Of a stretch of DNA of 34,042 nucleotides, positions 13,221 through 15,484 are shown one piece after another. Each line of letters starts with the position of its first letter. The first letter of the stretch is position 1. The stretch comes from Flavobacteriales bacterium. Its GTDB lineage: Bacteria; Bacteroidota; Bacteroidia; Flavobacteriales; BACL11. A program made the translations under genes and the position numbers. The DNA is taken from assembly GCA_012960805.1 (NCBI GenBank), contig DUAO01000023.1, forward strand, positions 1 to 34,042, in the 5' to 3' direction. The notes beneath the pieces are model-generated. The model did not search any database. It worked only from the letters and a program-made list of their open reading frames with translations, and was not told where the DNA came from.

Positions 13221-13252
13221 CAAAAAAAAAGCCCCAAATTAATGGGGCTTTA
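13221..13252 (-). terminator. Rho-independent terminator of rpsA
   Basis: On the - strand a seven-base stem AAGCCCC / GGGGCTT with an eight-base loop (ATTAATTT) is followed by nine T's. It lies a few bases after the rpsA stop and directly abuts the pyrR -7 element. Confidence 0.9.
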
Positions 13253-13258
13253 AATTAA

Positions 13259-15358
13259 TTATTCATCTTTCTCTAAATTCTTCTTCAGCTCCGACAGCTG
13301 ATCTAAATCACCTAAAGTAGTTTGCTTTTTATTTTTATCAAGTTTTTTTATCACTTTTTTAGTTGATGCCACACTTTTCTTTCTTTTGGTTTTTGTCTCT
13401 TGCTTAAAGATTTCAGTATGCGAAACTAATATTTTTTTATTTTCTTTTGAGAACTCAAGAATTCTGAACTGCAATGTTTCACCAACTCCAGCAGCAGAAC
13501 CATCTTCTTTTTCAATATGGCTCTTTGGAGCAAAAGCTTCAATACCTTCGCCTAAAGTTACTAAGGCACCTTTATCTAATACTTCAGTAATAGTTCCTTC
13601 ATAGTCTTTTCCATCAAGAAATTGTTTAGCATAAGTATCCCAAGGATTTTTCTCTAATTGCTTGTGTCCTAAACTAATTTTTCTGTTTGATTTATCAATA
13701 TCCAAAACAACAACTTCTAATTGAGTGTCAACTTGAGTAAACTCAGCTGGGTGTTTAATTTTCTTAGTCCAAGATAAATCAGAAATATGCACTAATCCAT
13801 CAACTCCTTCAACTAACTCAACAAATATTCCAAAGTTTGTAAAATTTCTTACTTTAACACTGTGCTTTGAACCAACCGGGAAGTTAGCTTCAATATCAAC
13901 CCATGGATCTGGAGTCATTTGTTTAACACCTAATGACATCTTTCTGCTTTCCTTATCTAAGGTTAAGATTTGAGCTTTTATAACATCGCCTTTTTTATAG
14001 AAGTCATTTGCACTTCTTAAATGAGTAGACCATGACATTTCAGATACATGTAATAATGCTTCAATTCCTGTCTGCAATTCAACAAACACGCCATAATCAG
14101 CAACTACTACAACTTTCCCTTCAACTTCATCACTCACTTTTATTGATTCATCTAAATTTTCCCAAGGATGAGTTCCTAATTGTTTTAATCCTAACTGAAT
14201 TCTACTCTTCCCTTCGTCATAGTCAAGAATTACAACATTAATTATTTCATCTAAAGATACAATTTCATCCGGGTGAGAAATTCTACCCCAAGATAAATCA
14301 GTAATATGAATTAAGCCATCAATACCGCCTAAATCAACAAATACTCCATATGAAGTAATGTTTTTAACTGTTCCTTCAAGTACTTGCCCTTTTTCTAATT
14401 TAGACATTATTTCTTTAGTTTGAACCGCTAAATCAGCTTCAATTAATGCCTTATGAGATACAACAACATTTCTGAATGATTCATTTACCTTAACTACCTT
14501 GAATTCCATTTTTTTGCCAACATATTCGTCATAATCACGAATAGGTTTCACATCAATTTGAGAACCTGGCAAGAAACACTCAATACCAAATACATCAACA
14601 ATCATCCCTCCTTTAGTCCTACTTTTAATCTGACCATTAACAATCTCACCGGTTTCAAGCGCTACATTAACTTTTTCCCAAGCTCTTAATACTCTTGCTC
14701 TTTTATGAGATAATACTAACTGACCATTTTTATCTTCTTGCTTTTCAACTAAAACCTCAACAATATCACCAGCCTTAAGCTCAGGGTTATACTTAAATTC
14801 GTTAAAACTAATTATACCATCTGATTTAAAATTAATATCAATAACAACCTCCCTATCAGTTACCATTACGACAACACCATCAATAACTTGCTTAGCTATT
14901 ACATCTGGTAAAGTAGTGCTGTATTCTTTTTCAAGATCTGATCTTTCAATTTTTGTGTAGTTGTCATTCTGTGATATAGTTTCCCAATCAAACGGCACAA
15001 CTTCCTTAACTATTTTTTCTGGGGGTTTTTCTTCTTTCACTTCTTCAATAACAGCTGTTTCGATTACTGAATCTACAACAGGAGTTTCTGTTGCTTTTAC
15101 TTTCTCTTTAATTGGAGTTTCTACTGTATCTTCTACGACTTCTTCTGTTGCAGGAACTTCCTCCTCTACAACAGAAGTTGCAGCCGCTACTTCTTTATTA
15201 ATTTCCTTAGTTACAGCTGTGTCTATAACAGCCTCTACAACAGGAGTTTCTGTTGCTTTTATCTGCTCTTTAACTGGGACTTCTACTGTTTCAATCTTAT
15301 TAATTCTAGGCTTTTTAACAGCTTTTTTTGTAGTTGTTTTTTTCTTTGCTTCTGACAT
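13259..15358 (-). CDS. rpsA: 30S ribosomal protein S1
   Basis: S1 binds mRNA on the 30S subunit and helps unfold and load it. The 699-residue protein has six S1 (OB-fold) repeats between about residues 130 and 650, for example GTVKNITSYGVFVDLGGIDG, GKVVVVADYGVFVELQTGIE and VKVRNFTNFGIFVELVEGVD. A lysine-rich tail follows. The N-terminal ~115 residues are an unusual low-complexity Lys/Glu/Thr/Val extension, absent from E. coli S1, that contains an in-frame duplication (ATETPVV occurs twice, 54 codons apart). A 110-120-base structured leader precedes the ATG and a terminator follows the stop, so rpsA is a single-gene unit. Autoregulation through the leader is plausible, since S1 represses its own mRNA in gammaproteobacteria. 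Confidence 0.97.
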   Translation of the reverse strand: MSEAKKKTTTKKAVKKPRINKIETVEVPVKEQIKATETPVVEAVIDTAVTKEINKEVAAATSVVEEEVPATEEVVEDTVETPIKEKVKATETPVVDSVIETAVIEEVKEEKPPEKIVKEVVPFDWETISQNDNYTKIERSDLEKEYSTTLPDVIAKQVIDGVVVMVTDREVVIDINFKSDGIISFNEFKYNPELKAGDIVEVLVEKQEDKNGQLVLSHKRARVLRAWEKVNVALETGEIVNGQIKSRTKGGMIVDVFGIECFLPGSQIDVKPIRDYDEYVGKKMEFKVVKVNESFRNVVVSHKALIEADLAVQTKEIMSKLEKGQVLEGTVKNITSYGVFVDLGGIDGLIHITDLSWGRISHPDEIVSLDEIINVVILDYDEGKSRIQLGLKQLGTHPWENLDESIKVSDEVEGKVVVVADYGVFVELQTGIEALLHVSEMSWSTHLRSANDFYKKGDVIKAQILTLDKESRKMSLGVKQMTPDPWVDIEANFPVGSKHSVKVRNFTNFGIFVELVEGVDGLVHISDLSWTKKIKHPAEFTQVDTQLEVVVLDIDKSNRKISLGHKQLEKNPWDTYAKQFLDGKDYEGTITEVLDKGALVTLGEGIEAFAPKSHIEKEDGSAAGVGETLQFRILEFSKENKKILVSHTEIFKQETKTKRKKSVASTKKVIKKLDKNKKQTTLGDLDQLSELKKNLEKDE
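15072..15261. repeat. in-frame direct repeat inside the rpsA 5' region
   Basis: The segment TCTACAACAGGAGTTTCTGT and the following eight bases occur at 15072 and again at 15234, exactly 162 bases (54 codons) apart, with weaker similarity over about 75 bases on both sides. It encodes the duplicated ATETPVV-type segment of the S1 N-terminal extension. Confidence 0.85.
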
Positions 15359-15385
15359 TTTTGCCTTTTTCTTTGTATCTAAAAA

Positions 15386-15460
15386 GTTGGTAAGGTAATT
15401 TGTTGCAACTTTCAGAGGAATTAAACTTTATAATTTTCCTTTTCACTACCTTACAACAAC
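15386..15460 (-). promoter_or_regulatory. long-range stem in the rpsA leader (candidate autoregulatory element)
   Basis: In the - strand transcript GUUGUUGUAAGGUA (15460-15447) can pair with UACCUUACCAAC (15397-15386): four plus eight base pairs separated by a two-base bulge. The 49-base interior holds a smaller AGGAA/UUCCU stem. The element fills most of the 110-base leader between the promoter and the rpsA ATG. The downstream arm ends 27 bases before the start codon. Regulation by S1 itself is inference. Confidence 0.5.
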
Positions 15461-15476
15461 ATCCTGAAAAGGGCTG

Positions 15477-15484
15477 CAAATATA
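15477..15484 (-). promoter_or_regulatory. -7 promoter element of rpsA
   Basis: On the - strand TATATTTG matches TAnnTTTG, with TTTG 23 bases upstream (15511-15508). It is followed by CAGCCC, the same bases that follow the rpmE -7 element. The predicted transcription start near 15473 gives a leader of about 115 bases. Confidence 0.65.

Follow-up and report, generated by a model that had tools for sequence, protein, structure and literature searches.

A covarying double pseudoknot in the rpsA leader of Flavobacteriales, a candidate operator for ribosomal protein S1

In the order Flavobacteriales, the gene for ribosomal protein S1 (rpsA) is preceded by a structured leader RNA, which is conserved across the order and linked exclusively to rpsA. 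Judging from covariation between species, two hairpins (P1 and P2) are joined by two loop-loop helices (A:A' and B:B'), and the resulting fold is a compact kissing double pseudoknot. The initial annotation had claimed a structured RNA at this place, and the four covarying helices, together with the order-wide conservation and the exclusive linkage to rpsA, strongly support that claim. We consider it probable that the leader is an autoregulatory operator, at which free S1 represses its own translation. The role of S1 in recruiting mRNA in Bacteroidota is a proposal, for which the operator-like RNA conserved at the S1 gene gives a small and mutable test object.

Locus and architecture of the leader

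We analysed a stretch of 34,042 nucleotides (the window) from a metagenome-assembled genome of Flavobacteriales; 'Cryomorphaceae bacterium BACL11' belongs to the same genus. The rpsA gene is placed after cmk and ispH on the minus strand (13259..15358; 699 amino acids; NF004953, E = 3e-253). An intrinsic terminator directly 3' of rpsA (13228..13251, minus strand) precedes pyrR and pyrB, and given this terminator the rpsA transcript is probably monocistronic. The -7 element TATATTTG at 15477..15484 (minus strand), with TTG upstream at 15510-15508, presumably belongs to TAnnTTTG, the promoter consensus of Bacteroidota, and almost every leader of the order has TA-N-TTTGC at an equal distance. Because of this Bacteroidota-type element at 15484-15477, the putative transcription start, as read from the promoter motif, would give a leader of about 113 nt (15359..15473, minus strand). 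The leader matches our covariance model at 15480-15373 (87.6 bits, E = 6.3e-11), which is the sole match in the genome.

Next to the gene, in the pyrR-pyrB region (13237-12656, minus strand), the promoter-like element TATTTTTG adjoins the rpsA terminator, and several families retain a pyrR homologue next to rpsA. In the family of the window, the S1 protein is extended at its N-terminus by about 120 low-complexity amino acids with a repeated KATETPVV block (15000-15358 in the window, minus strand); elsewhere in the order, many families have an S1 that starts roughly at the end point of this extension.

The strands of the RNA, all on the minus strand, were assigned by comparison. P1 pairs CCUUUUC (15466..15472) with GAAAAGG (15438..15444), and P2 pairs UCUGAAAGUUG (15406..15416) with CAACUUUUUAGA (15378..15389). 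The P1 loop holds strand A (UGUUG, 15457..15461) and then strand B (GUAAGGUAGU, 15445..15454), and the P2 loop holds A' (CAACA, 15401..15405) and then B' (AUUACCUUAC, 15390..15399). Since the strands alternate as A, B, A', B', helices A:A' and B:B' cross each other as well as P1 and P2. Helix A:A' is weak in the window taken alone and is supported across the order. The invariant UACAAA (15372..15377), unpaired and directly 3' of P2, spans positions -19 to -14 relative to the start codon.

The loci outside the endosymbionts that were picked by gene position share one plan, which from 5' to 3' is the TAnnTTTGC promoter, P1, an A-rich linker, P2, UACAAA, a spacer and AUG; it is less clear by eye in a few leaders, for example L215 and L217. 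P1 is usually CCUUUU:AAAAGG and in almost every leader starts a few bases at most from the putative transcription start, and P2 is closed by a conserved U-A pair. The gap between A and B is 0-8 nt on the 5' side and mostly 0-7 nt on the 3' side, values that are unreliable where A is weak. These loop lengths are compatible with an H-type arrangement without proving it.

The initial annotation had described one long stem of 12 bp with two bulged bases, between 15460-15447 (GUUG-uu-GUAAGGUA) and 15397-15386 (UACCUUACCAAC), enclosing an inner hairpin. This stem is indeed present on the minus strand and is the nested minimum of the rpsA leader in RNAfold. The minimum free energy of the window leader is -21.9 kcal/mol (z = -0.58), and 51 of 200 shuffles fold equally well; a single-sequence fold is weak evidence alone, and the comparison between species decides. 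The core of the stem, GUAAGGUAGU:AUUACCUUAC, was reached by 0.4% of shuffles with a narrow pairing window and by 2.3% with a broad one. Across species, the eight inner base pairs are retained as the conserved B:B' helix, and the four outer ones (GUUG:CAAC) are not conserved and compete with the conserved P2 and A:A', so that the stem was rejected as the entire structure. The inner hairpin also differs from the conserved one, the conserved partners being P1 and P2, and the architecture is that of a kissing double pseudoknot instead.

Comparative tests of the helices

Leaders were taken by gene position from the genus of the window, its family, further families of the order and then most of the remaining families. 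In the cross-pairing test, the 5' segment of each leader was paired with the 3' segment of the same leader and with those of other species, a design which retains composition and in which shared ancestry counts against the hypothesis. The loop-loop helices were tested in this way because a plain MAFFT alignment shifts B' by one to two columns. With 47 leaders of less than 78% identity, the z values were 11.8 for B, 9.4 for P2, 6.7 for P1 and 6.1 for A, and none of 20000 permutations was as high as observed, while a negative control (P1 loop against linker) gave z = -2.3. Note that the pairing windows of this test were set after the data were seen; broad loop windows, which are less tuned, still gave z = 9.3. 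Helix A kept z = 5.1-7.3 once B was masked, and B reached z = 5.4 in the family of the window alone and 10.0 in the other families. Mononucleotide shuffling of the 3' strand agreed with the cross-pairing result.

P1 and P2 were also scored on a model-fitted alignment of 73 leaders, which favours these two helices and leaves A and B unfitted. Here 90.2% of the cells were paired, against 72.5% after shuffling and 41-65% after sliding, and 211 double-sided changes were counted, against 62 after shuffling. Some of the A and B column pairs (22-130, 20-128, 38-144 and 32-150) were among the better-covarying columns of the same alignment. Compensatory changes in the arms, on which the initial annotation had staked its proposal, were abundant.

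The extent of these changes can be seen in individual leaders. B:B' is GUAAGG:CCUUAC in the genus of the window, ACAGGCU:AGCCUGU in L039, UUUUGCAGGC:GCCUGCAAAA in L160, GGAUAGC:GCUAUCC in L175, GGUUUGAA:UUCAAACC in L151 and UUUGAGC:GCUCAAA in L152, and A:A' is GCGCAU:GUGCGC in L173, ACGGA:UCCGU in L152, AAAUGAC:GUCAUUU in L034 and AUGUG:CACAU in L041. The loop sequences turn over completely between leaders, with only the fold and UACAAA being kept.

Occurrence and linkage to rpsA

A first covariance model, containing P1 and P2 only, was built from 26 leaders of the family of the window (f1); the models are home-made, and their E-values are rough. In 296 Flavobacteriales genomes, this model matched 82 at E = 0.01 or better, with one match each, in families f1-f8 and f16. 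All 61 matches with listed coordinates fell within 500 nt upstream of rpsA on the same strand, and with five further matches that agree by coordinates, 66 of 66 were directly upstream of rpsA. The order-wide model from the 73 leaders matched 132 of the 296 genomes, again once each, and added families f9, f13 and f14. Undetected leaders elsewhere in the order probably reflect strict filters and sequence turnover, since leaders recognisable by eye from gene position exist where the model failed. When 396 genomes drawn over the class were searched with the 73-leader model, there were 11 matches, every one inside Flavobacteriales, and none in the approximately 378 genomes of the class outside the order.

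The RNA therefore has what is expected of a ribosomal-protein leader, namely a place in the 5' UTR of a ribosomal-protein gene, compensatory changes and restriction to rpsA in the genome. The flanking genes of rpsA vary between families (ispH, cmk or neither), and the leader therefore travels with rpsA. A genome-wide count of the word AAGATACAAA was uninformative.

No recognisable rpsA leader was present in five endosymbiont-sized genomes of 300-600 kb (family f15, L218-L222). In the smallest of these (L220 and L221), the gene ahead apparently has a coding sequence that extends nearly up to rpsA. As a separate observation, two genomes (G010 and G015; 99% and 94% complete) gave only a weak S1-domain match for rpsA, perhaps owing to a missing stretch.

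Proposed function and related leaders

The anti-Shine-Dalgarno sequence is hidden in the ribosomes of Bacteroidota. The sequence ahead of the start codon in the window, AGAAAAAGGCAAAA, is without a canonical Shine-Dalgarno core. Shine-Dalgarno pairing is unused in this phylum (PMC6847099), and the binding of S1 to unstructured leaders has been proposed as the selector of start sites in Bacteroidetes (Accetto and Avgustin, PMC3155529). According to the same authors, structure near the start codon represses and structure at -21 does not, a strong hairpin at -21 in Prevotella bryantii having left expression undiminished (PMC3155529).

UACAAA also served as a delimiter in our rule for leader extraction; all 51 loci outside the endosymbionts that had been selected by gene position contain it as such or in a close form. 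Across the order, a median of 18 nt separates P2 from AUG, which puts UACAAA at a median of about -18 to -13. We propose UACAAA as a putative contact of S1 or the 30S subunit on the mRNA, by analogy with E. coli, in which S1 domain 4 reaches nucleotides -12 to -15, and with F. johnsoniae, in which adenines at -12/-13 accompany higher initiation (Baez and colleagues, PMC6847099).

In gamma-proteobacteria, the initiation region of rpsA is the object of a competition between free and 30S-bound S1, through which S1 represses its own mRNA (PMC10931766). From the location of the present leader, the known biology of S1, UACAAA at the predicted contact and the loss of the leader in endosymbionts, we infer binding, competition and repression by S1. 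Translation in these bacteria starts independently of Shine-Dalgarno pairing, so that the 30S subunit probably needs S1 to be recruited to rpsA mRNA. Free S1 in excess over 30S subunits would bind UACAAA, the A-rich tail and the pseudoknot, and the bound S1 would shut out the 30S subunit, thereby repressing its own translation. The switch would act on S1 alone because the transcript probably contains only rpsA and is ended by the intrinsic terminator. Since S1 has little sequence preference, the sequence-variable pseudoknot need not be its ligand, and since the hairpin at -21 was harmless in Prevotella bryantii, P2 itself may not block the ribosome.

We tentatively extend this model, with clearly less confidence, to a double pseudoknot that might be opened by ribosome-bound S1 for initiation and trapped by free S1, with RNA melting by S1 as the sensor, in an RNA that is order-wide and perhaps Bacteroidia-wide. 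If this extension is true, the leader would be the first defined S1 operator on mRNA in bacteria without Shine-Dalgarno pairing, and S1 autoregulation would have been invented independently with a fold unlike the enterobacterial one. In any case, the leader represents a further RNA family, whose kissing double pseudoknot sets it apart in structure, and it suggests an independent origin of S1 feedback control in a second phylum.

The retention of only the fold and UACAAA while the loops turn over would suit a structure-dependent translation enhancer or standby element equally well. The pseudoknot would then make UACAAA and the A-rich tail accessible to S1 on the ribosome and leave the start region open, resulting in high constitutive S1 without feedback. 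Strong expression of rpsA is needed without Shine-Dalgarno pairing, the structure stays clear of the start region by the median 18-nt spacer, and the hairpin at -21 in P. bryantii was harmless (PMC3155529), all of which speaks for such an element. However, an open start site would hardly call for four covarying helices and a link to rpsA alone, and the covariance models found the motif at no other gene, so we regard an enhancer as unlikely. It is more improbable still that the leader regulates rpsA translation by sensing a signal other than S1, such as temperature, another ribosomal protein, a metabolite or an RNA. Compact pseudoknots do serve many ligands, and the loops are without a conserved S1 site apart from UACAAA, but they are also without the invariant nucleotides that a small-molecule pocket needs, and the strict one-gene linkage favours the product of rpsA as the ligand.

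The position of P1, a few bases from the putative transcription start in almost all leaders, would agree with a 5' stabiliser, in which the pseudoknot and a P1 placed at the very 5' terminus shield rpsA mRNA from decay. We give this very little probability, since a plain hairpin would be enough for such a task, and the crossing helices, the fixed distance to AUG and the restriction to rpsA would be unneeded. As for functionless chance folding of an AT-rich leader, the unexceptional single-sequence fold (z = -0.58) speaks for it, but the order-wide compensatory change and the one-per-genome linkage to rpsA refute it, leaving it a negligible probability.

Some further candidates were examined and rejected. 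The window contains AUG-UUG-UUG-UAA as a possible upstream ORF or leader peptide, of which frame and length vary in relatives, and most other families are without an AUG there. For transcription attenuation, no U run directly follows P2 in the family of the window. An antisense promoter arising from UACAAA was discarded, CAAAnnTA being confined to the genus.

The S15 and S4 leaders of E. coli each control a ribosomal-protein gene through a pseudoknot near the start codon. Our leader would share this feature; it differs in that its separate hairpins are held together by two loop-loop helices that cross, and no rRNA-like site was recognised, short of a systematic search. The rpsA leader of the E. 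coli type is a set of hairpins. The present RNA has in common with this gamma-proteobacterial leader (PMC10931766) the location at rpsA, the missing Shine-Dalgarno sequence, a fold in the initiation region and an AU-rich single-stranded S1 contact, which is putative here; it differs in being a kissing double pseudoknot that ends about 18 nt from AUG, in a different phylum and with presumed regulation by S1. Leaders for S4, S16, L13 and other ribosomal proteins are found in Flavobacteria and Bacteroidia (Eckert and Weinberg 2020, PMC7247131), and like ours they are clade-restricted structured leaders with covariation upstream of ribosomal-protein genes; an S1 or rpsA leader is absent from the text of that survey.

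No Rfam 15 family, including Flavo-1, reached its gathering score over the rpsA leaders, and the best match on the window leader was a snoRNA (E = 3.9). We found no description of a Bacteroidota rpsA leader in the open literature, a mention in subscription papers or supplements being possible, and rpsA is unnamed in the examined main-text passages of the F. psychrophilum transcriptome paper listing 64 structured 5' regions. Flavo-1 (RF01705) is likewise a structured flavobacterial RNA, without a match to the window. In a Flavobacterium-like genome (G053), it occurs just upstream of the rpsA promoter (L139 574-649, 58 bits), and it does not overlap the rpsA leader there.

In 34 nonredundant Bacteroidales leaders, a P1-like helix was supported (z = 8.3) and a pairing between the loop and the downstream region weakly so (z = 3.0). 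Because P2 was unsupported at the equivalent place in these leaders (z = -0.2), we do not claim them as the same family. The rpsA leaders of Bacteroidales and relatives (L049-L106) nevertheless look structured, many having a conserved UUUAACC that precedes a 3' hairpin, as well as ACAAA close to the start codon, and their topology seems to vary among subgroups.
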